Shown here piece by piece: positions 3,233-20,810 of a stretch of 21,316 nucleotides of DNA. Origin of the DNA: a virus; IMG/VR virus record IMGVR_UViG_3300036985_004197, positions 1 through 21,316 of that record; one strand, 5' to 3'. The stretch's first letter is position 1; each line of letters starts with the position of its first letter. The notes beneath the pieces are model-generated. The model was given only the letters and a program-made list of their open reading frames with translations. It searched no databases and was not told where the DNA came from. Both the position numbers and the translations under genes were made by a program.

Positions 3233-5140
3233 CTAAGCAAAGCGGATCACTACCGCATAATATGTCCTGTATTCACCACTAGGATGAAGACTGGGAAGCA
3301 ATCTTGTCGCCGCGCGAACTTCGACTTGATTAGCAGCAGTCACGCACCCTGACCACCCAATAATGTGGCCGTTTGGCTGACCATCCGGAGACACAAACAC
3401 CGTATCTCCGACTTGTGCGCCTGTGACGGTAATGTTGTCAGCATAAACTTCCCCGGTATAACCCCATGCTAACAAAGTGCTGCCAGACCCATACATGACC
3501 TTTGCGACCTTGGCTCCGCTACCAATCTTCAGCCCTCCAGCCCCTGGAGTAATATCCATCGTTGTTGCGGATAACGTCGCTTTTCCTGCAGCGTCCACTG
3601 TTACCGACAAATAATTTGAGGCATCATACCCAAGTCGCAGTTGCTCAGTAGTTTGAATCACATGCCAGCCAGCACTGACCGTTGTTGTGTTAACTCCAAG
3701 TCCTCCTGCAAAGTAGTTTTCTGCACTTCCCGCCATATAGCAATTCCATTTGCCAGTTGCGGACGCAACATTACCAGAAAACGCCGCTGCAAGGGTTGAA
3801 GCTCCAAGTGTTAAGTTGTCACACAAGAATCCATACTGGTTCGTCGTCGTGCTTCCAGCACCAAACGTCGCATCACTTGAGTGAAATCCAACGACACTTG
3901 TCAGAGTCAACGATGGTCCCGTTACCAATGCTGTTTTAGCCCCAACCCATTCAGTTGAAACCGTTAAGTATCCAATCGAGTCCGCCGTTCCCGGAGTATA
4001 AGGAACCTCAAGCCCCAGTGCCGTCTGCACTATGCCGCCACCCGGCTTTAGTTTTGCCGAAACTTGACCAGATCCATTGAATTCAATGCCCGTTCCACTC
4101 GCCAGCACCTCAAGCCCCGAAGCCGCCTGCGATAGCCCTCCTGATGCCTTGAGCTTTGCTGCAACCTTATTGGTCCCGTCAATTTGAATCCCAGTACCAC
4201 TCACCGGCACTTCAATTCCTGATGCGGATTGCGATAGTCCGCCGATCGTCTTTAATTTTGCTGCAACGCTTCCTGTGCCATCGATCACAACGCCAGCATT
4301 GCTCACCAGCACTTCCATACCGGAAGCGCTCTGAGATAGAGCCCCAAGCGTCTTCAGCTTTGTTGAAACCGTGCCGAAACCGTCGACCTCTATTCCCGTT
4401 CCGCTTGTCAGAACTTCAATTCCAGATGCTGATTGTGCGAGCCCACCAAGTGTTTTAGGAATTGCAGCGATGTTTCCAGAGCCATCCAAGGCGATGCCCT
4501 GGCCGCTGACCTTCGCAGCCAGTTCCCCCGTTCCATCGATTGTGATGCCATCACCACTTACCAGCACTTCCATACCGGAAGCACTTTGGGACATCCCACC
4601 AAGCGCCTTCAACTTTGCGGAAATCTGGTTTGACGCGTCAATCTCGATGCCGGCACCACTTACCAGCGATTCGAGGCCGAACGAACTTTGTGTCATCCCA
4701 CCAAGCGGCTTGAGCTTTGCAGCGATGTTTCCAGCTCCGTCGAGAATAACCCCTGTGCCACTTACCTTCGCAGCCAGTTCGCCAGCACTATCAATCCAGA
4801 CGCCATCGCCGCTCACCTTCAATGCAATTTTTCCCTCAGCATCAATTGTTATGCCTTGCTCCGTTACCTTGAGCGTGAGGTTTCCGTCGTCGTTAATCGT
4901 AATTCCTTCATCGATTACCATAAGAGCGACTTGACCAAGCTCGTCGATATTCACGCCCCTGTTGCTCATTCTCAGGCTAATCTTGCCTGTGCCATCAATC
5001 GTTACCCCTTGATTCGTGATGATCATATTCGGATTTGCAAGCGTACCGAGAGCCTTTCGCACCAACACCGACTGGGACGGATCGATTTCAATTCGGCCTA
5101 AACCGACCGACATCCTGTTGGCTACGATGTCCTCTGTCAT
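3233..5140 (-). CDS. Long tail fibre with 20-unit shaft, paralogue 1
   Basis: A 635-residue fibre, the downstream member of a tandem pair. The order is an anchor (residues 1-42, with NRMSVGLGRI and SVLVRKALGTL), a shaft (about 43-382) of twenty 15-19-residue units of the form GIxIDGxGxVxAKLK alternating with GLSQxASGMEVLVSG, a head region (about 383-540, with GFHSSDATFGAGSTTTNQ, NYFAGGLGV and LRLGYDASNYLSVTVD), and a variable tip of about 90 residues. The head motifs are common in trimeric phage fibres, and the shaft resembles the triple beta-spiral of adenovirus fibres. It is predicted to be a trimeric receptor-binding fibre on the tail. GGAG precedes the ATG by 10 bases within a 20-bp gap after its paralogue. 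I see no intramolecular chaperone motif at the C-terminus. Confidence 0.9.
   Translation of the reverse strand: MTEDIVANRMSVGLGRIEIDPSQSVLVRKALGTLANPNMIITNQGVTIDGTGKISLRMSNRGVNIDELGQVALMVIDEGITINDDGNLTLKVTEQGITIDAEGKIALKVSGDGVWIDSAGELAAKVSGTGVILDGAGNIAAKLKPLGGMTQSSFGLESLVSGAGIEIDASNQISAKLKALGGMSQSASGMEVLVSGDGITIDGTGELAAKVSGQGIALDGSGNIAAIPKTLGGLAQSASGIEVLTSGTGIEVDGFGTVSTKLKTLGALSQSASGMEVLVSNAGVVIDGTGSVAAKLKTIGGLSQSASGIEVPVSGTGIQIDGTNKVAAKLKASGGLSQAASGLEVLASGTGIEFNGSGQVSAKLKPGGGIVQTALGLEVPYTPGTADSIGYLTVSTEWVGAKTALVTGPSLTLTSVVGFHSSDATFGAGSTTTNQYGFLCDNLTLGASTLAAAFSGNVASATGKWNCYMAGSAENYFAGGLGVNTTTVSAGWHVIQTTEQLRLGYDASNYLSVTVDAAGKATLSATTMDITPGAGGLKIGSGAKVAKVMYGSGSTLLAWGYTGEVYADNITVTGAQVGDTVFVSPDGQPNGHIIGWSGCVTAANQVEVRAATRLLPSLHPSGEYRTYYAVVIRFA
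3995..5014 (-). repeat. Fibre shaft repeat array, paralogue 1
   Basis: Twenty protein units. The first five are short (17-18 residues, ending KVSG or similar). Most of the rest alternate a 19-residue unit ending KLKxLG with a 15-residue unit ending LVSG, with one extra 17-residue unit in the middle. The register matches the upstream paralogue unit for unit, including the single interrupted alternation (DGITIDGTGELAAKVSG). Confidence 0.8.
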
Positions 5141-5160: not shown

Positions 5161-7074
5161 CTAAATAAACTTGACCACTACCGCGTCCCATGTTCTGGCG
5201 TCATCATATGCGCCGAAAGTGCCGCCTATATTCGCGTCTATACGCACTTCGACGGTATTCGCCGAAATCACGGAGCCCGACCACATTCGTATCTCGTACG
5301 GCGGCTGATTCCTGGGAGACACAAACACCGTATCTCCGACTTGTGCGCCTGTGACCGTAATATTCTCTATCAAAATGCTGGGGGTAACTGTGGGGAACAA
5401 GAAATAAAGACCCGCAGACCCCTTCAGGACTTTTGCTATTGGGTTCCCGCTACCAATCTTCAGCCCTCCAACCCCTGGAGTAATATCAACTGTTGGTGCA
5501 GACAATGTCGCTTTGCCTGCAGAATCCACTGTTACCGACAAATAATTCGAGGCATCATACCCAAGTCGCAGTTGCTCAGTAGTCCTAACAACGTGCAGGC
5601 CAGCACTAATAGTTGTTGTGCCAATACCGACCTTTCCTGCAAAGTAATTTGGTGCCGTCCCTGCCATGTAGCAATTCCATTTGCCAGTTGCGGACGCAAC
5701 ATTACCAGCAAACGCCGCTGCAAGAAGTGAAGCCCCAAGTGTCAGGTTGTCGCACAAAAATCCAAACTGGTTCGTCGTCGTGCTTCCAGCACCAAACGTC
5801 GCATTACTTGAGTGAAATCCAACAACATCTGTCAGAGTCAACGAGGCATCTGTCACCAACGCTGCTTTGGCACCGGCCCATTCAGTCAAGGTCGTTGTTA
5901 AGTATCCAATCAAGTCCGCCGTTATTCCCAGGACAATATTCACTTCAATTCCTAAAGCAGTCTGCGCGAGTCCTCCACCAGCCTTGAGCTTTGCTGCAAT
6001 CTGACCGGATCCATTTAATTCAATGCCTGTCCCGCTCACCAGCACTTCAAGGCCAGAAGCAGTCTGCGATAGTCCAGAGAGACTCTTCAACTGTGCTGCA
6101 ACCTGACCAGTGCCATCGAGAATAATTCCTGTGCCACTGACATTCACTTCCATGCCTGAAGCACTTTGCGATATTCCCCCCAACGCCTTCAGCTTCGCGG
6201 AGACCTCCCCAGATCCATCGATTTCGATTCCCGTCCCACTCGGAACGACTTCAATTCCTGTGCCAGACTGGGACAGCCCGCCGAGTGTCTTCAGCTTTGC
6301 AGACACGGCGCCACCGCTGAGTTCGATGCCCGTGCCGCTGACGAGTACTTCCATGCCAGTGGCGGCTTGCGATAGTCCGCCAAGCGTCTTGAGATTGGCT
6401 GCAATTTGGCCGGCACCATCGATCACGACTCCTGTGCCACTAACCTTTGTCGTTAGCTCGCCAGCACCATCGATTACGACGCCATCGCCGCTTACTAATA
6501 ATTCCATCCCGGCGGCGCTCTGGGACATTGCGCCCAACGCCTTCAGTTTTGCGGAAATCTGGTTTGACGCATTGATCTCTATTCCAGTTCCAGTCACCTT
6601 CGCTTCGAGGCCGGAAGTCGTCTGTGCAAGTCCGCCGAGTGTCTTGAGCTTTGCAGCAATGTTGCCCGCGCCATCGAGCATAATGCCTGTGCCGCTTACC
6701 TTCGCGGCCAGTTCTCCAACACCATCAATCCAGATGCCATCACCACTGACCTTCAGCGCAATGTTGCCCTCGGCATCAATCGTGACGCCTTCGTCCGTTA
6801 CCTTGAGCGTGAGGTTTCCGTCGTTGTTAATCGTTATTCCCTCATCGCTCACCATCAAATCAATCTGGCCAAGGTCGTTGATCTTCACGCCCAGATTACT
6901 CATTCGCAGGCTGATCTTGCCCGTGCCATCAATCATCACGCCCTGATTGGTGATGATCAGATTCGGATTCGAAAGCGTACCGAGAGCCTTCCGCACCAAG
7001 ACCGACCCTTTCGGATCATTGATGATTCGTCCCAAACCAACCGACATCCTGTTGGCTACGACCTCAGCTACCAT
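5161..7074 (-). CDS. Long tail fibre with 20-unit shaft, paralogue 2
   Basis: A 637-residue fibre co-linear with its downstream paralogue along the whole length. The anchor is residues 1-42. The shaft (43-381) has twenty glycine-punctuated units such as TGIEIDGSGEVSAKLKALG and GISQSASGMEVNVSG. The head region (about 382-545) contains NYFAGKVGIGTTT and LRLGYDASNYLSVTVD. The tip (about 546-637) differs strongly from its partner except at VTGAQVGDTVFVSP. The start ATG overlaps the stop of the nozzle-like gene (TAATG), with GGAG 9 bases upstream, so the two are coupled. The anchor-shaft-head-tip order and the link to the nozzle gene suggest a receptor-binding tail fibre; trimeric assembly is inferred from the repeat type. 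Confidence 0.9.
   Translation of the reverse strand: MVAEVVANRMSVGLGRIINDPKGSVLVRKALGTLSNPNLIITNQGVMIDGTGKISLRMSNLGVKINDLGQIDLMVSDEGITINNDGNLTLKVTDEGVTIDAEGNIALKVSGDGIWIDGVGELAAKVSGTGIMLDGAGNIAAKLKTLGGLAQTTSGLEAKVTGTGIEINASNQISAKLKALGAMSQSAAGMELLVSGDGVVIDGAGELTTKVSGTGVVIDGAGQIAANLKTLGGLSQAATGMEVLVSGTGIELSGGAVSAKLKTLGGLSQSGTGIEVVPSGTGIEIDGSGEVSAKLKALGGISQSASGMEVNVSGTGIILDGTGQVAAQLKSLSGLSQTASGLEVLVSGTGIELNGSGQIAAKLKAGGGLAQTALGIEVNIVLGITADLIGYLTTTLTEWAGAKAALVTDASLTLTDVVGFHSSNATFGAGSTTTNQFGFLCDNLTLGASLLAAAFAGNVASATGKWNCYMAGTAPNYFAGKVGIGTTTISAGLHVVRTTEQLRLGYDASNYLSVTVDSAGKATLSAPTVDITPGVGGLKIGSGNPIAKVLKGSAGLYFLFPTVTPSILIENITVTGAQVGDTVFVSPRNQPPYEIRMWSGSVISANTVEVRIDANIGGTFGAYDDARTWDAVVVKFI
5932..6948 (-). 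repeat. Fibre shaft repeat array, paralogue 2
   Basis: Twenty units of 15, 17, 18 or 19 residues with the pattern G-hydrophobic-x-hydrophobic-x-x-x-G-x-hydrophobic-x-hydrophobic. One unit (TGIELSGGAVSAKLKTLG) is a residue shorter than its counterpart. The pattern is that expected for a triple beta-spiral shaft: two short strands joined by a glycine turn in each unit. Confidence 0.8.
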
Positions 7075-8964: not shown

Positions 8965-9840
8965 TTAAGGGACCACAAATGTCATGTTGACAATAAGATA
9001 ATCGCCCGAACCTACGATAGTCGGCGTTTTGACTGTGATCAGTTGGCCATGTGCGATTTCTACGGCCCCAGCAACAATAGTCCCAGATGCTGATGTTGAC
9101 CACGGACCGCGGATCGTCGCGCTGAACCCTGCTCCCGGAACGACTCCTGTCAACGAAACGTTTGGTGCAGCCCCCCCAGCGTTATTCATCTGGAGATTCA
9201 CGACCGTCGCTGAAGACGTATTCGTGTGCGAGACCGAGTATGAACACAGATGCCCCGTGCGGCCTCGCCACAAATGCTGACACCCTCTGCCGAGAACCAG
9301 AGTTGTTGAGTTGTTGTACCCAGTAGTCGGGAAGATCATGTCTACATGCTTGACCATGTCTGGCAACCCAACGGCCAGGCTAAGGATCGGCGACAATGGC
9401 ATCAGAGCCCCAGCGATGGAAATGCCGAATTCGATCGCTTGATCCACGATACCGTAATAGAAGACCCCGGCTCCGATCTCGACTCGGACAGGATCCCCCA
9501 CCTGAAAGTAATCGGTGGCTTTTCGCATGATTCCAAGACTTGTGGATCCACCGGGGAACGCTACCGAAACACCAAGAGGCGGGCTCGTCGCAACGTAGGC
9601 CGTTGCCGGGACGATTCTCCAGCGAGGCACAGCCCCTGAAACGAAATCATTTCCACTGCCGTACGAAATCGTGTCGCCAACCAAAGGTAGGTTGGTCGCG
9701 TAGGCGGGATCACTAAACAGCAATGACCGCAGCTGTGTTTTTGTCAGCTTTCGGCTAACTCCGTCCGTTTGCTCGACCTCAAAGACGTCCCCCTCATTCA
9801 TTGCGGAGATTGCCAACAGTTCTGAAATCGTGATTCCCAT
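8965..9840 (-). CDS. Putative tail fibre or tail-associated protein
   Basis: A 291-residue protein. The N-terminal 42 residues (MGITISELLAISAMNEGDVF, then KLTKTQLRSLLF) resemble the short anchor segment seen at the start of many phage fibre proteins, where a stretch of this type ends in a Gln-Leu helix. The remainder is Gly-, Ser- and Thr-rich beta sequence with hydrophobic stretches around residues 140-165 (ISIAGALMPLSPILSLAVG) and a beta-rich C-terminus resembling an immunoglobulin-like or jelly-roll domain (residues about 200-291). I do not recognise a precise family. The stop is one base from the nozzle start. No strong ribosome binding site precedes the ATG, although GGGAAAA lies upstream. 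Confidence 0.7.
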   Translation of the reverse strand: MGITISELLAISAMNEGDVFEVEQTDGVSRKLTKTQLRSLLFSDPAYATNLPLVGDTISYGSGNDFVSGAVPRWRIVPATAYVATSPPLGVSVAFPGGSTSLGIMRKATDYFQVGDPVRVEIGAGVFYYGIVDQAIEFGISIAGALMPLSPILSLAVGLPDMVKHVDMIFPTTGYNNSTTLVLGRGCQHLWRGRTGHLCSYSVSHTNTSSATVVNLQMNNAGGAAPNVSLTGVVPGAGFSATIRGPWSTSASGTIVAGAVEIAHGQLITVKTPTIVGSGDYLIVNMTFVVP

Positions 9841-15784: not shown

Positions 15785-15944
15785 GTTAACACCTTATTCC
15801 AAAACACTGCTTCGTCGCTGAACCCCTCCAGCGATCATTTGTTGCCATTCGACAACTGGGGTCCGCTCCCGTTACGGCACTCATTCTGGACAACATGCCC
15901 AGTCGGGAAAACAACACCAGAACAAAACAACTTGACAGGAAGAG
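15785..15944 (-). other. Leader between capsid gene hairpin and concanavalin-like gene
   Basis: This is 160 bp without a supported gene. It holds the ribosome site for the gene at 15784 and a weak 5-bp hairpin (CGCTG with CAGCG, about 15812-15830). I see no convincing promoter. An open frame of 72 codons crosses it from 16004 but overlaps the capsid gene end and has no ribosome site or recognisable protein. Confidence 0.5.
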
Positions 15945-15967
15945 GGAACCCGCCACTGGCGGATTCC
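15945..15967 (-). terminator. Hairpin after the major capsid gene, weak terminator or mRNA end stabiliser
   Basis: On the minus strand GGAATCCGCC and GGCGGGTTCC pair over 10 bp (one T-G wobble) around a 3-base loop, 17 bases after the capsid stop. No real thymine run follows (CTCTTCCTGTC), so a stabilising 3' hairpin or weak terminator is more likely than a full stop. An alternative fold of GGCGG with CCGCC uses the adjoining bases. Confidence 0.55.
15950..15962. repeat. 13-bp palindrome CCGCCACTGGCGG, copy 3
   Basis: Identical to copies 1 and 2, and forms the core of the hairpin after the capsid gene. The decamer GACAGGAAGA (15934-15943) stands beside it, as it does beside copy 2. Confidence 0.8.
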
Positions 15968-15984
15968 GCCTCCCGTCAGTCCGA

Positions 15985-17094
15985 TTACTTGCCGAAAACG
16001 GCACACTTTCGACGATTGACGCACAGGAAGTTGTACGTCAGGTCAATGAACGTTCGCCACATATTGTGCTGGTTCGGAGCCTGCGTCGGGCCAGTCTCGC
16101 GAAGATAGTCACCCTTCAAGCAAACCGGGTAGAACACGGAATGGTCGATCTGGTAAACAGGGTTAGTGGCTGCAGTGAACACTGTCGTGTCGTCCAGCTG
16201 AGGGACGTACACGATGGGGTTCTTCTTGAACACCAACGTACCGTCCATTTCGCTAACGCCACCACGGCCACGGCTGCTGTGCTGGCCAGCTTCCATCGGA
16301 GCCAAGTCGCGGCCGAGGTTTTCGTTCTGCGACTCGCCAACGTCTTCGAACGCGCTGCATGTCACTTCGTCGCAGTAGTAGCGACGATCGTTGGCACGCT
16401 TCGTGTTCATGTCCTCTTTCGTGACCGGACTCTTGAAGTTGGTCTTGCGGAGGGCCGTTCGCATCTTCGGCAACAGGTCAGTCTTGCTGACAGTCGCGTA
16501 ATTCGCGGTGTAGTTCTTGAACTTCGGGGACTCGGTCAGGTTGATGCCCGCAATGGCTGTGTGGACAACAGCGTCTGGGCCGGTCGGATATCCGCCGTTG
16601 AATCCAGTCGTTGCGTTGTACACAACCCAGTACGGCAAACCGTAAGGGTTGAGCTTGTCACTCGAGTTCGGAACCTGCCAGGCTTTGGCTTCCAGTTCCT
16701 GCGCCAAGTCGATCATCGCAGCAACGCGACGAGGCTTGACGGTGTCATTGATACGGGACTTGCCCGAGTTCATCAAGATGTCGGTCTGGTAGTTATAGCC
16801 CCATTTCGTCTGAGCATGACGCCAAGGGACGGTCATGTCGTCCATCAGATCCGGGATATCGACATCGTCAATGTCAGTCATGCCCGTGTGGGATGCTGCA
16901 CCTGACAACTGAGTCAACAGATTCTTGCGAATCGCGATGCCATCGTTGAAGGTGACTTTGTCATCCGTCAACCAGTGCGACATCATTTCATAATCCTGCA
17001 AGTCCTGGGCAATTTGCTCCCAGTTCATGCGGTCCAGTTCCGGAAGGATACTGGATACCAAATCGGCAACATCCTGTGGTGTGACTACTGCCAT
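15985..17094 (-). CDS. Major capsid protein
   Basis: A 369-residue protein directly after the scaffold gene, the usual place for the major capsid protein. It begins MAVVTPQDVADLVSSILPEL and contains DDKVTFNDGIAIRKNLLTQL, NYQTDILMNSGKSRINDTVK, RVAAMIDLAQELEAKAWQVP and a closing beta region (NPVYQIDHSVFYPVCLKGDY, then MWRTFIDLTYNFLCVNRRKC). The long helix near residue 140, the large beta middle and the C-terminal A-domain-like sheet agree with an HK97-type fold; that fold is the family expectation, not something proved here. AAGGAA lies 8 bases before the ATG. Five cysteines in the last half (two in CDEVTC) are unusual for a capsid protein. A hairpin follows the stop. Confidence 0.85.
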   Translation of the reverse strand: MAVVTPQDVADLVSSILPELDRMNWEQIAQDLQDYEMMSHWLTDDKVTFNDGIAIRKNLLTQLSGAASHTGMTDIDDVDIPDLMDDMTVPWRHAQTKWGYNYQTDILMNSGKSRINDTVKPRRVAAMIDLAQELEAKAWQVPNSSDKLNPYGLPYWVVYNATTGFNGGYPTGPDAVVHTAIAGINLTESPKFKNYTANYATVSKTDLLPKMRTALRKTNFKSPVTKEDMNTKRANDRRYYCDEVTCSAFEDVGESQNENLGRDLAPMEAGQHSSRGRGGVSEMDGTLVFKKNPIVYVPQLDDTTVFTAATNPVYQIDHSVFYPVCLKGDYLRETGPTQAPNQHNMWRTFIDLTYNFLCVNRRKCAVFGK

Positions 17095-17123: not shown

Positions 17124-18116
17124 CTAAAGACTGTTTTGCTTCCAATAGTCCTGTTCCATCTGCAGTGCCTTTGACGGACCATTAAGCGGCGTTGCGCCAC
17201 CTGAGTTCGGTCGAGACAATGCTTGGGAACCGGACTTCTTGATATCGCCCTTCAGTTTTTCGCGTGCGGTCGTTTGTGCATGTTTGTAAAAGGAGGCGTG
17301 AACCGCTTCCTGAATAAGTTCCGATTCTGCTGGCACTTTCTTACCAGCTGTCAGATACCCATGTCGGAGCATGTTCACTTTGTCGAACACCTGTTGCCGA
17401 TTCTGGGCCTGCTCTGGTGACTTCGTGAGAAGCTCACCACGATTACCAGTGCCGAATACATCCTTGAATTCGTCGCCGATGTTGTTGAGTGTCGCATCAA
17501 ACCGGTCGCATTGTGCCTCAAATGCACGCTGATTTTCGATCTGGGTTAACTGCCTGACTTGGGCTTCGGCTCGCTCTGCACGCTCCCAGTTTTTCTTCTG
17601 GAGCGCCACCATATCCGGATCATGCCCCTGCTCGATTAACTCTTCCCAATTGGGCGGAGTATTTTCATCGTCAACAGGAGTATCCGCCAATGGCGGTTCA
17701 GTGACCGGAACTTTCCCGGCTTCATGAACCTTGAAGCGTTCCTGAAACTTCGCGACTCGAGTGATCTCTCTTTCCAACGACTTAACATCGTCGAATTTCT
17801 TTAGATCGTCGATCGAGTAACCAAGCTCGAATGCCTTATCCAACAGTTCATCGCTGATCGTTTCCGAATCAACGGTTTCAACAAGAGGTGTCTCCACCTT
17901 CTCTTCAGTGGTTGTGCCACTGGCTTCGTCCGACGTCTCAGACGGTTGTTCCGTGTTACTGGATTCTTCATCAGAGTCTTCAAAGGCTTCATAGCCGGGA
18001 TCCGTCGCCGAATAGCCAGTGCCGGAGTCATTCGTCTCAACGGCTGCTGTTTCACTTGAAACTGTTTCGGAAACAGTCTCTGACGCGGGGGCTGTGCCAG
18101 TTTCCAGACTCATCAT
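17124..18116 (-). CDS. Scaffolding protein
   Basis: A 330-residue acidic protein before the major capsid gene. The start is put at one of two adjacent ATGs (18116 or 18113) because AAGGG lies 5 or 8 bases away; a longer frame from a TTG at 18167 would run through the terminator hairpin. Residues 1-100 are almost all Ser, Thr, Glu and Asp. Residues about 85-125 contain ISDELLDKAFELGYSIDDLK. Residues about 180-215 form a helix (KKNWERAERAEAQVRQLTQI). The C-terminus is basic and Gly-rich (KLKGDIKKSGSQALSRPNSG). Acidic, helical scaffolds with a basic capsid-binding end are typical. The protein should guide procapsid assembly and then leave. One PPLAD stretch is encoded by palindrome copy 4. Confidence 0.85.
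   Translation of the reverse strand: MMSLETGTAPASETVSETVSSETAAVETNDSGTGYSATDPGYEAFEDSDEESSNTEQPSETSDEASGTTTEEKVETPLVETVDSETISDELLDKAFELGYSIDDLKKFDDVKSLEREITRVAKFQERFKVHEAGKVPVTEPPLADTPVDDENTPPNWEELIEQGHDPDMVALQKKNWERAERAEAQVRQLTQIENQRAFEAQCDRFDATLNNIGDEFKDVFGTGNRGELLTKSPEQAQNRQQVFDKVNMLRHGYLTAGKKVPAESELIQEAVHASFYKHAQTTAREKLKGDIKKSGSQALSRPNSGGATPLNGPSKALQMEQDYWKQNSL
17684..17696. repeat. 13-bp palindrome CCGCCAATGGCGG, copy 4
   Basis: Same palindrome with A at the centre, inside the scaffold gene, where it encodes PPLA. Copy 1, in another gene, encodes PPVA in the same frame relative to the repeat. Confidence 0.75.
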
Positions 18117-18125
18117 CAAAACCCT

Positions 18126-18165
18126 TAAAAGAAAATGGGAGCGCGGGCTACTAAACCCGGCTCCC
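18126..18165 (-). terminator. Terminator-like hairpin just before the scaffold gene
   Basis: On the minus strand GGGAGC-CGGG pairs with CCCG-C-GCTCCC (10 bp with one bulged base, 8-base loop, 18137-18165), followed by ATTTTCTTTT. The scaffold ribosome site AAGGG starts directly after it, so it would act either as the end of a short RNA made from the promoter at 18338 or as an attenuator in front of the capsid block. Confidence 0.75.
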
Positions 18166-18303
18166 ACAGAGGGCCGCGATGTTCTGTGGACATCTTCGCG
18201 AGTGGTGGTGTCGACTCCACTTCCTCGCTCTGTCCGACTGCAATTGCCGGGAATCTGACCCGGCTCCCATGTACAAATTGTTGCTTACACGCGTTGCGTG
18301 CGA
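18126..18303 (-). ncRNA. Candidate structured leader RNA or small RNA
   Basis: About 175 bases between a promoter and a terminator-like hairpin with no credible open frame. Seen on the minus strand, in order: CACGC-AAC-GCGTG hairpin (18288-18300); GCCGGG with CCCGGC around a 7-base loop (18246-18264); a two-part stem GCGAG/CTCGC and GTGG/CCAC (18198-18228); GATGT-CCACAGA-ACATC (18178-18194), whose whole loop is complementary to TCTGTGG at 18164-18170; and the terminator hairpin. The sequence TGGGAGCCGGGT occurs twice (18258-18269 and 18155-18166), so the terminator's 3' strand could pair with either copy. It could be a regulatory leader of the scaffold gene, a free small RNA, or an assembly RNA. 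It matches no class I know, and it is not a tRNA. Confidence 0.5.
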
Positions 18304-18307
18304 GCAA

Positions 18308-18337
18308 TGACAGTATTCCAAAAACTGATAACTGTCA
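18308..18337. promoter_or_regulatory. Inverted repeat overlapping the promoter, possible operator
   Basis: TGACAGT and ACTGTCA form a perfect 7-bp inverted repeat with a 16-bp spacer. One arm covers most of the -35 element and the other covers the -10 element, so a dimeric protein bound here would block the promoter. The symmetry may instead be chance or a weak hairpin. Confidence 0.4.
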
Positions 18338-18338
18338 A
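18310..18338 (-). promoter_or_regulatory. Sigma70-type promoter upstream of the structured leader
   Basis: On the minus strand the -35 TTGACA (18338-18333, full consensus) stands 17 bases from a -10 TACTGT (18315-18310, keeping the T-A-n-n-n-T frame). The expected start of transcription is near 18303. It overlaps the end of the 111-residue protein gene and is the only consensus-spaced promoter I find in the window on the coding strand. Confidence 0.65.
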
Positions 18339-18670
18339 CTACGAAGTGCCTGTCGTGCTGCTTCTCGCTGTTCTGGAGTTGCCTCAATCCATTCAGACTT
18401 CATGCTCTTGAACGTTGAATCCAATTCGACTTTCTGGGCCGTCTGGGCTATGTAACTGTCGTGAATCCTAAGCACGAATTCAGCAGCATGACCCTCATAA
18501 AACTCCTTCAACGCTGCCCTGTCGGTGAGATCCAAACTTGGCACTTCCGCATCAGGAGCAGTGTCAGACGACGATCGAACTCCGCTGCTCGCTTTCGCCG
18601 CATGACGTATTGCTCGCATATCCTCCGGATCCATCTGCGAAATGTTCACTGTGATGACGATCGTCGACAT
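18335..18670 (-). CDS. Unknown small acidic-helical protein
   Basis: A 111-residue protein. The first strand MSTIVITVNISQMD is followed by a helix (EDMRAIRHAAKASSG), a disordered Ser/Asp-rich linker, and two helices (DRAALKEFYEGHAAEFVLRI and EATPEQREAARQALRS). No known family is evident. Its ATG overlaps the preceding stop (TAATG), and AGGAGA lies 8 bases upstream. It sits between portal and scaffold. The end of the gene carries the -35 element of the promoter for the following leader. Confidence 0.75.
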   Translation of the reverse strand: MSTIVITVNISQMDPEDMRAIRHAAKASSGVRSSSDTAPDAEVPSLDLTDRAALKEFYEGHAAEFVLRIHDSYIAQTAQKVELDSTFKSMKSEWIEATPEQREAARQALRS

Positions 18671-19074
18671 TACCTGTATCTCCTGACATTGGCGGTTCTG
18701 TGTGTTGATGATGGATCTCCGTATCCACCATTCCTGTCGAATAGACCCAGTGCCTCACAAACTTTCTTACGCTGCCGTGCGTCCTGAAAGACTACATCGC
18801 CATCCTTGTTGTGTTCAACTTCTCCGCATCCCTTCTTTCGCAAGTGGTCCATTTGCTCTTTGATCTGAGCAGGATGAACACCAGCTGCGGAACTGACCAT
18901 CGGGTAATTTGCCGGGACCGTTGAAATCCCTGAACCCGGATTGAAGTACGACTTTGCCTTTCGGCCGTCATCCAGCTTGATCACTCCGTTCTTCACCCTG
19001 CGATCATGCTCGGCAAACGGCATGAACAGTTCAACGATCTCACCATCCTCTGTTTGAAACTCATACGTCGGCAT
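18670..19074 (-). CDS. FmdB-like N-terminus protein, unknown phage function
   Basis: A 134-residue protein that starts MPTYEFQTEDGEIVELFMPF, close to the start of FmdB-type zinc ribbons (MPTYEYxCxxCG), but the metal-binding cysteines of that family are absent. The middle has SYFNPGSGISTVPANYPMVS and the helix HPAQIKEQMDHLRKKGCGEV. The end holds VVFQDARQRKKVCEALGLFD and a basic tail. It is coupled to the portal gene (TAATG overlap, GGAGGTGA upstream). It may be a small head-vertex or assembly protein; the only firm points are its position and the altered zinc-ribbon start. Confidence 0.7.
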   Translation of the reverse strand: MPTYEFQTEDGEIVELFMPFAEHDRRVKNGVIKLDDGRKAKSYFNPGSGISTVPANYPMVSSAAGVHPAQIKEQMDHLRKKGCGEVEHNKDGDVVFQDARQRKKVCEALGLFDRNGGYGDPSSTHRTANVRRYR

Positions 19075-20810
19075 TACTCTTCACCTCCACCAGACATCAA
19101 CATTTGTGCCATCTGCTGGTCCGCAGCTTGTGGCGTCATCCCTTGGCTCACGTTGTTCCGCGTGTACTTCCCGTTTGGCTTCCCAACCTGCGGTGGCTGT
19201 CCGCCCTGCGTTCGTTCTTCAGGCGGCATAGCTTCCTGAGACGTCTTCACAATGTCACGGAGTTCAGGAAGATCGTAATACTTCGCCAGCTTGTCGAGGT
19301 AAGCGTAACAGTCCGGAACAACACCGAGTTGAACAGCCGGAACAATGTCCTCGCGCCAAATCTGACGAAGCAGCTGGGCTCGCTGGCCGGGTGACACTTC
19401 AGTCATTGAGTATGGTTCAATGTTGATTCCATACTCTTCAATGGTCCCCTTCCTGACGTCCATCTCGTTCCCGAATCCGTCATCACGACGCGGCCACTTA
19501 ATTGGCAACTTCATGTCGGTCCCGCTGATCTCGCGAGTCATCTCAAATTCGATCGTTGGGTGATGATGGAGATAAAACGCTATGTCCTGCAAAACTCCCT
19601 GCGTCGCGCTGAGCAACACGCCCTGCATACTCCCGATTCGGAGGTTCGCAGCCTGCTTGATCATTTGTTCCTGACCAAGCGTGCTGGCCGATGCCCCGAG
19701 TCCCATCTGTGCGGACAGATTCCCCATGACGAAGTCTGCCATGGATTTGACATTGAGGGCAAACCCCAGAGTCTGCTGATTGACGCCCCCAAAGGATGCT
19801 TCCTTGAATGCGTTCGGATTACCAACAGCAATCACATCGCCATCATTGGTCTTGATGATGTTCTGGCCGTCCGGAACGCCCTGAAGATCGGTAATTCCAA
19901 TCGTCTTCTGCCGCGCGGCCTGCTTCCCGAGTTTCGTGTACAGCTTGTTCTCGAGATCATCCAAGTCGACCCAGTTGGCCACGGGTGACAATGGCATGAT
20001 GTTGTTCAGAACTGGATTGAAACCAAACATATGATACGGGCCGTGCTTCGGGCCTTTCCACTTGATCGTCTTCAACGGAACTTCGCCGCCATCGACGGCA
20101 AACGTGACAACCTCGTTCTCTTCGGGGACGAAAATCTGCCAGATTTCACACATCTCACTGAACACTTCACCGTTCGAATCACCCTGCCTCGAAAGGCTTG
20201 CAGTGTCATCCTTCCTGCCATTCTTCGTGATAGCTTTCAGGTTTTTGCGAGCTTCCTCACCGAACTCAGGATTCTCCCTGGCTACGGACAATGGCATCAG
20301 ATACTTGTGACCCCAGAACGCCGCGTTTCGAGATCCCCATTTCTTTGCATTCGTGTCGAACACGAAATCGTCGAACATGATTGTCTCAACAAACACGTCC
20401 GTAATCGGAAGTGGTTCGCCATCGACTTCCGGCCGGTCAACGACATTCAATCCAACTTCCATAATACCGACCATGAAAATGGCCGACAGAACCCAGACTC
20501 GATGCTCCTGCTCGAACTTCATTTTCTTCAAGGCTTGATTCATCGCCAGTTCAAGCTCGATGGCCGACGACTTCAATGAAGGGTTGTGCGTCGTGCAGAG
20601 AACCTGCGGGGCTCGAGACGACAACTGCTGCAGCAACGACTCTACAGACAGCTGAAGCATGTTGATTGGACGCTCGGCACCGTTCTTTTGCCCGTAATGC
20701 GGACCAGTGTAGGAGTCCAAGAATTCCTTCAGTTCCCGGCGAAACGGTTCCAGCTGCTTCACGCTTGGGTCAATAGCGGCCTGCAGGGATTTGAATCGTT
20801 TTTCGTCCAT
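19074..20810 (-). CDS. Portal protein
   Basis: A 578-residue protein next to the terminase, the usual place of the portal gene. Helical N-terminus (KQLEPFRRELKEFLDSYTGP, then INMLQLSVESLLQQLSSRAP), a middle with beta structure (ITDVFVETIMFDDFVFDTNA, WQIFVPEENEVVTFAVDGGE), and a long helical section GLGASASTLGQEQMIKQAAN followed by GSMQGVLLSATQGVLQDIAF, typical of the portal stem and crown. The tail is Pro-, Gly- and Met-rich (MTPQAADQQMAQMLMSGGGE). Portal rings of 12 subunits form the DNA entry channel, bind terminase during packaging, and later hold the adaptor. GGAG precedes the ATG by 6 bases and overlaps the end of the terminase gene. Confidence 0.85.
   Translation of the reverse strand: MDEKRFKSLQAAIDPSVKQLEPFRRELKEFLDSYTGPHYGQKNGAERPINMLQLSVESLLQQLSSRAPQVLCTTHNPSLKSSAIELELAMNQALKKMKFEQEHRVWVLSAIFMVGIMEVGLNVVDRPEVDGEPLPITDVFVETIMFDDFVFDTNAKKWGSRNAAFWGHKYLMPLSVARENPEFGEEARKNLKAITKNGRKDDTASLSRQGDSNGEVFSEMCEIWQIFVPEENEVVTFAVDGGEVPLKTIKWKGPKHGPYHMFGFNPVLNNIMPLSPVANWVDLDDLENKLYTKLGKQAARQKTIGITDLQGVPDGQNIIKTNDGDVIAVGNPNAFKEASFGGVNQQTLGFALNVKSMADFVMGNLSAQMGLGASASTLGQEQMIKQAANLRIGSMQGVLLSATQGVLQDIAFYLHHHPTIEFEMTREISGTDMKLPIKWPRRDDGFGNEMDVRKGTIEEYGINIEPYSMTEVSPGQRAQLLRQIWREDIVPAVQLGVVPDCYAYLDKLAKYYDLPELRDIVKTSQEAMPPEERTQGGQPPQVGKPNGKYTRNNVSQGMTPQAADQQMAQMLMSGGGEE

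Follow-up and report, generated by a model that had tools for sequence, protein, structure and literature searches.

A structured phage RNA family with a self-complementary loop and a loop complementary to the ribosome-binding site of the next, late structural gene

What fills a 213-bp gap between two genes of a phage structural operon? The gap was found in a window of 21,316 nucleotides (positions 1 to 21,316 of the IMG/VR virus record IMGVR_UViG_3300036985_004197), where it separates the gene of a 111-residue protein, p111, from a scaffold-like gene. Near the gap every gene lies on the minus strand, in the order terminase end, portal, p134, p111, scaffold and capsid, and the gap itself holds a structured RNA on that strand (Table 1). 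The preliminary description considered the gap exceptional among overlapping neighbours, which is true upstream (portal, p134 and p111) but not generally, as 200 nt (15785-15984) follow the capsid gene. This second gap has an inverted repeat GGCGGAATCCGCC and gave no match to the covariance model of the RNA family. The scaffold-like protein has relatives of 24-46% identity at the same gene position; neither it nor the major capsid protein has a PHROG match, and hence the name scaffold is taken from position. Elsewhere in the window, two tandem paralogous proteins of 635-637 residues (3233-5140 and 5161-7074), both built of repeated GIxIDGxGxVAAKLKxLGGLxQSASGxEV units, are probably tail fibres, and a scan for tRNA and tmRNA genes found none. 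The INPHARED phages contain no DNA or protein relative of the window phage, hence no cultured host or annotation came from there, and alignment of the portal protein against bacterial genomes gave no match. As argued below, the region is reasonably likely to encode a leader or small RNA of a hitherto undescribed family whose effect is to reduce expression of the gene that follows (scaffold in the window, and capsid by way of scaffold).

Table 1. Features of the RNA locus and of related planctomycete loci.
Feature	Record	Position	Strand	Remark
Portal gene	window	19074-20810	-	
p134 gene	window	18670-19074	-	
p111 gene (111 aa)	window	18335-18670	-	TGA stop 18335-18337
-35 box TTGACA	window	18333-18338	-	read directly; perfect match; overlaps TGA stop of p111
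-10 box TACTGT	window	18310-18315	-	read directly; weak; 17-nt spacer from -35
5' hairpin TTGCTCGCACGC-AAC-GCGTGTAAGCAA	window	18282-18308	-	strong; at expected RNA start
P1 region	window	18246-18268	-	first GGGAGCCGGGT copy 18268-18258; local hairpin GCCGGG/CCCGGC or pairing with terminator 3' arm
P2 hairpin	window	18188-18235	-	outer stem GGACA/TGTCC; inner GCGAG/CTCGC, GTGG/CCAC; 3'-side internal loop GAAGA
P2 apical loop AGTCGACA	window	18209-18216	-	palindrome GTCGAC 18215-18210; candidate homodimer kissing loop
P4 hairpin	window	18164-18189	-	CCACAGA/TCTGTGG; 12-nt loop ACATCGCGGCCC 18182-18171
Intrinsic terminator	window	18127-18166	-	hairpin 18166-18136 (one bulge) and U-rich tract UUUUCUUUU 18135-18127
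Scaffold translation start	window	18111-18126	-	SD AAGGG 18126-18122; ATGATG 18116-18111; P4 loop target
Scaffold-like acidic protein gene	window	17124-18116	-	presumed control target; between portal module and capsid
Major capsid protein gene	window	15985-17094	-	after scaffold in operon; identified by gene order
Planctomycete locus	L373	5230-5345		
Planctomycete locus	L382	1902-2030		
Planctomycete locus	L384	5393-5508	-	
Planctomycete locus	L355	6528		
Planctomycete locus	L344	1581-1695		
Planctomycete locus	L325	7930		

The preliminary description reported a consensus -35/-10 pair at 17-bp spacing at the upstream end of the gap. The -35 box is perfect and the spacer is indeed 17 nt, but the -10 box agrees with TATAAT at only three of six positions, and the word consensus was generous. 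Transcription from this promoter would be expected to start near 18303. The pattern TTGACA-N17-TANNNT is kept in the three nearest RNA-carrying relatives (L002, L001 and L005), and the same -35 motif with N17 also occurs in L129, so the local promoter is limited to the window's clade and, outside it, to L129. As it is not a family feature, the RNA in most phages must come from read-through of the structural operon. Neither is the hairpin at the expected 5' end a family feature, being unique to the window and absent in L002 and the other members. At the downstream end, a G+C-rich hairpin is followed by a U tract, as in intrinsic terminators, and the scaffold Shine-Dalgarno sequence begins directly after the tract; both points had been described correctly. 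A generic promoter and terminator scan flagged neither site in the window, with counts not above chance, because of the bulged terminator stem and the weak -10 box. The 213-nt region folds with -83.6 kcal/mol, compared to -62.5 ± 4.5 kcal/mol for shuffled sequences (z -4.7, 0/200); the opposite strand folds too (z -5.6), thus the strand does not follow from the z-score by itself. Single-sequence evidence for promoter and terminator is weak, and the case rests on conservation.

Relatives were located via their capsid and portal proteins. The RNA of L002 shares 82-84% nucleotide identity with that of the window, and the identities of p111, scaffold, capsid and portal are 67-73%. The two RNAs differ by indels of 2, 1, 1, 1, 1 and 1 nt; such non-triplet changes rule out a coding explanation of the gap and, together with the fold, support the earlier view of a hairpin-dense region with no credible frame. 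In L001 and L005 there is no detectable nucleotide similarity to the window RNA, yet the corresponding position shows the same layout. Altogether, 18 phages have the RNA directly before the scaffold gene. It is absent from the scaffold junction of the relatives L004, L011 and L172, and is therefore dispensable.

Covariation was scored on a MAFFT alignment of 14 members (A8) with the consensus structure supplied by hand. In this alignment 81.0% of the cells are paired, compared to 65.9 ± 1.5% after shuffling, and the covariation score is 0.460 versus 0.228 ± 0.021 (0/500), figures that lean towards the structure given by hand, those from A10 even more. Sliding the partners cuts pairing to 40-51%. 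For 35 members aligned to the covariance model, 89.9% of the cells are paired with a score of 0.565 versus 0.193, on an alignment that had been fitted to the structure being scored. RNAalifold on the MAFFT alignment missed P4, probably because P4 competes with P2 and the terminator. The covariance model was built from the 14 members, leaving out the window and L002 because of their longer P2; it nonetheless finds the window RNA with 22.3 bits (E 0.008), as well as further phages. Viral contigs were scanned for the P2 hairpin CGGGAGTAGCTACCCG and then with this model. Loose descriptor scans gave many chance matches, in one case 142 versus 144, the control strand yielding as many as the real one; they served only to propose members, each of which was then checked by position, model score or permutation test. 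L216, L262 and L244 are weaker members (missed by R1, or with a poor loop match), and L056 and a match at 9032 of the window were dismissed as chance. The conserved pairing that the preliminary description called for among relatives is thus present as compensatory changes, and we are nearly certain that the RNA family is real.

The first variable part of the family is the apical loop of P2. Across members, P2 has an A-rich internal loop on its 3' side (GAAGA, GAGAA or GAGA) and an apical loop of 6-10 nt; in the window its 3' strand overlaps P4 by two bases (CC). The loop carries a palindrome that differs between phages: GUCGAC in the window, UAGCUA in L002, L001, L014, L157, L161 and L252, UGAUCA in L005 and L204, UCAUGA in L080, UGGCCA in L216 and, with a G-U pair, UGGCCG in L035. 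L087, L186 and L168 have only a 4-nt CAUG core without a 6-nt palindrome, and L239 and L129 have GAUC. The self-pairs of the loop are paired in 88.9% of cases, compared to 53.8% after shuffling, with a covariation score of 0.912 versus 0.299 (0/500 shuffles); columns 18-21 hold AU five times, CG four times and GC three times, and columns 19-20 hold AU and GC six times each. Counting distinct loops from members not chosen by this exact pattern, a 4-nt palindrome is present in 14 of 14 (shuffled mean 5.0, maximum 12 in 20,000) and a 6-nt palindrome in 8 of 14 (shuffled mean 0.9, maximum 6); most of these members were identified by position alone, and the figure is somewhat optimistic because some were first proposed by a palindrome-preferring scan. 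A self-complementary apical loop kept by compensatory change is one feature expected of a kissing-loop homodimer, and kissing between two molecules is the natural reading, so that dimerisation appears probable from the pattern of substitutions. In the dimer initiation site of HIV-1, a 6-nt palindrome with purines on either side occupies an apical loop of 7-9 nt, and the identity of the palindrome varies between relatives. The P2 loop, as a candidate dimer site, resembles it in these respects, but here the loop sits in a leader RNA of a bacterial virus, beside an antisense loop and a terminator.

The second variable part is the loop of P4, a hairpin with a stem of 5-7 bp and a loop of about 12 nt across members. 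Its neighbouring helices compete, because the 5' CC of P4 is also in the P2 outer stem and the 3' GG touches the terminator. In the window, the loop is complementary to the scaffold ribosome-binding site (RBS) by CCCU/AGGG and CAUC/GAUG, and this site is the best of 20 gene starts (-13.6 versus -11.7 kcal/mol for the next). Other members match their own RBS with other sequences, namely UCGUUGCCC/GGGUAACGA in L157, UUCGCAGUCC/GGACUGUGAA in L001, AACGCACCU/AGGUGCGUU in L168, GCGUUCCU/AGGAACGC in L186, GCUGUCC/GGACAGC in L252 and 9 bp in L035. In seven independent members, the loops of which were chosen by eye, none of the 5040 permutations pairs better than each loop with its own RBS. Moreover, 19 held-out members, detected solely through the P2 pattern or the model and with loops taken from the model alignment against a fixed 45-nt window, have a mean of -11.8 compared to -9.3 kcal/mol, with 1 of 100,000 permutations as good. 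When the test was repeated in fully mechanical form on every locus with the P2 pattern, z was -6.5 for viral loci (n=48) and -5.3 for loci in bacterial genomes (n=44), with 0/20,000 each. Complementarity is moderate in L129 and little in L420, L457 and L244. Judged from these permutations, the loop-RBS pairing is very probably functional, and the match could also exist to couple, rather than block, translation.

The RNA is not confined to scaffold genes. It precedes the large terminase gene in L427 and L448, the small terminase in L414, the major capsid gene in L456, L436, L460 and L423, the capsid-protease in L431, the major tail protein in L441, the cement protein in L440 and, in L129, found by the model alone, the portal gene. 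In members it lies on the same strand as the next gene and immediately upstream, hence we infer that the two are cotranscribed. Most phage records have a single copy. The preliminary description proposed a phage small RNA, or a leader deciding whether scaffold and capsid genes are transcribed. Its general idea is borne out by the structure, the compensatory changes, the own promoter in the window's clade and the conserved terminator before the scaffold RBS. However, the most specific conserved feature, the P4 loop against the RBS, points to translation, and the variety of genes that follow the RNA in relatives shows that it is not tied to scaffold. At 4743-4960 of L161, about 20 nt separate the end of a tRNA-Met gene from the RNA, the 5' end of which could therefore arise by tRNA processing.

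In planctomycete genomes the same P2 hairpin stands just behind tyrosine-recombinase genes and beside tRNA genes (Table 1). This form has -10-like sequences upstream and, after P2, a longer hairpin without a U tract, the loop of which matches the start of the next gene by 6-10 bp. The gene after the RNA has no Pfam match, and no Rfam family covers this form. These loci look like integrative elements that harbour a relative of the phage RNA. Over bacterial genomes as a whole, the P2 pattern gave 88 matches, not above the ~120 expected by chance, and only the subset behind integrases with loop-RBS complementarity was taken as related. Similar hairpins were also seen in other settings. Six viral contigs with Bacteroidetes-like promoters (L433, L453, L478, L445, L450 and L432) have a compact P2 hairpin, GTGGATAGTCGGGAGTAGCTACCCGATGACA...TTCCACTTTTT, and a second loop TGTCTATC that matches GATAGACA before the next ATG. 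A multi-copy element has the same 16-nt hairpin in another conserved surround, TGAATACnnnAGCCAC...GTGGnGAATA (L329, L339, L385 and L386, four copies in one Binatota genome, and L321, L323, L353, L359, L371 and L387), and is apparently a separate repeat family. Several of the Oscillibacter contigs L342, L360, L378, L383, L392 and L405 end about 30 bp from the same hairpin, possibly as repeat-caused contig breaks.

How might such an RNA act? RNA transcribed from the local promoter, or reaching the gap from upstream genes, would fold into P1, P2, P4 and the intrinsic terminator, where most polymerases would stop to give a free RNA of ~170 nt. In read-through mRNA, the P4 loop would pair with the Shine-Dalgarno and start region of scaffold and block initiation. 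In cis this pairing would form a pseudoknot around the terminator hairpin, which looks sterically easy, the U tract being amply long to bridge the 6-bp P4 stem; pairing in trans from free copies is also possible. Through the self-complementary P2 loop, two free RNAs could kiss each other, or a free RNA could kiss the same leader in an mRNA and dock there in trans, so that repression could depend on RNA concentration. The copy of the terminator 5' arm at P1, described below, could pair with the terminator 3' arm and so offer an alternative, antiterminated fold. Pairing in cis would be hard to escape, and repression alone would be incomplete without a trigger, for which genome copy number, a phage protein and ribosome traffic are candidates. 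Repression of this kind seems somewhat more probable than not. It is possible, but at present only a tentative suggestion, that the family is a new and widespread class of self-recognising riboregulators, in which the palindromic loop binds its own kind, the second loop is re-tuned to each late-gene RBS, and dimerisation senses concentration or copy number.

The free RNA might instead confer immunity in trans: made by a resident element or a first phage, it would pair with the late-gene RBS of a related incoming phage, and immunity groups would follow from the differences in the P2 and P4 loops. The co-variation of loop and RBS between phages fits this idea, as do the planctomycete loci, where the RNA directly follows integrase genes and has -10-like sequences close upstream, and the precedent of c4 in the antirepressor control of phages P1 and P7. 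In P1, c4 is encoded directly before its target, with which it shares strand and transcript, and is processed by RNase P at a GGW motif to ~77 nt. One of its loops (b') covers the ribosome site of the target, and another (a') adds specificity upstream (PMC5320573). The RNA of the window likewise stands on the same strand upstream of its target and carries antisense bases in its loops, and in both families one loop is complementary to the target RBS, the c4 target being a1b1. By contrast, the window RNA consists of four hairpins with its own intrinsic terminator; its second loop carries a self-complementary palindrome that varies between phages, whereas a' of c4 matches a separate target sequence; and it precedes late structural genes rather than an antirepressor. 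The logic is like that of c4 with recognition made self-referential, but by this comparison the RNA is not a c4 member. An immunity function is unlikely, as most phages have no own promoter and an RNA within the late operon would be made too late, and as the target is a structural gene instead of an antirepressor.

A plain attenuator or processed leader, with the other loops incidental, would have the terminator set the portal:scaffold:capsid ratio through partial termination, the copy of its 5' arm acting as antiterminator. This copy, overlooked in the preliminary description, belongs to an 11-nt repeat GGGAGCCGGGT, the second occurrence of which (18165-18155) is the 5' arm of the terminator hairpin; P1, where the RNAs start with GGG, is a 5' hairpin whose 5' arm repeats it. 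The arm copy is conserved, identity to the own terminator in 32 members exceeding that in permuted pairs (0/50,000), and the terminator covaries strongly among members. The long-range pairing between P1 and the terminator is the minimum-energy fold in the window, L010, L035 and L157, and pairing of the 5' copy with the terminator 3' arm would give an alternative, antiterminated fold. However, attenuation alone leaves unexplained the palindromic, covarying P2 loop and the loop-RBS complementarity of held-out members, and the planctomycete form has no U tract yet keeps both P2 and this complementarity, which makes the plain attenuator quite unlikely. In phage lambda, the pR' promoter is followed by the terminated 6S RNA of 150-200 nt (tR') and then by late structural genes. 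The window shares this order of promoter, short terminated RNA and late structural genes, but its RNA lies inside the structural operon before varying genes, with conserved loops that match the RBS, and unlike for the lambda system we know of no Q-like factor for it.

Action in particle assembly or packaging, as a pRNA-like scaffolding RNA whose RBS match keeps it free of ribosomes or autoregulates, is suggested by the self-complementary loop, which would allow oligomers, and by the location among head genes in many phages; it is highly improbable given that Rfam phage_pRNA gives no match, tail and small-terminase genes are also preceded, relatives with the same head genes lack the RNA, and the RBS matching goes unexplained. 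We likewise give very little credence to a functionless terminator or hairpin cassette that hops between phages and is similar through recent transfer: positions do differ between phages, and L035 has two copies (3811-3919 and 9666-9775) 5.8 kb apart before two different genes, ~92% identical (91.8% over 110 nt), that share one loop sequence and the RBS GGAATGCGCG matching it, but across the family the sequence has diverged while pairs covary, and every target gene has its RBS matched anew.

The preferred reading, a leader or small RNA that lowers expression of the next gene, has parallels in other phages. P22 sar is likewise a small phage RNA that pairs with a ribosome site and blocks translation, but it is encoded opposite its target. 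The scaffolding protein of P22 is under autogenous translational control, with the protein itself as effector; scaffold synthesis is likewise regulated after transcription in our model, here by an RNA element for which no effector was found. No Rfam family reaches its gathering score in the window or at any of 46 loci from relatives, in line with the earlier remark that no named RNA class fits; this includes the c4 antisense RNA (RF01695) and phi29-type pRNA. Under relaxed thresholds (E≤10 for the window region, E≤5 for L161 and L157), RF01695 was not among the matches. The isrK sRNA (RF01394) scored 17.1 bits against a gathering score of 50 bits and c4-a1b1 matched weakly, far below threshold, both in the terminator region only. 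Among open papers, two structured-RNA surveys (PMC2864571, PMC8040213) and a phage sRNA review (PMC12197685), as far as consulted, describe nothing like this before structural genes, and the words capsid and terminase are absent from the review; the family may nevertheless have been described before. Antisense masking of the RBS and attenuation are known; the RNA family and its combination of parts are not.

Known phage regulatory RNAs are mostly lysogeny switches, whereas this family fronts particle-building genes of phages with unrelated capsids. It offers a sequence-level hypothesis for the long-standing question of how phages control, after transcription, the relative amounts of scaffold, capsid and terminase and the time at which they are made. 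For a switch that responds to concentration, it is a natural design to combine a palindromic kissing loop with an anti-RBS loop adapted anew to each gene. If the riboregulator class proposed above is true, dimerisation would time particle building, and the related forms would do likewise in planctomycete integrative elements. The RNA has the look of an on/off control of virus particle production that had so far gone unrecognised.
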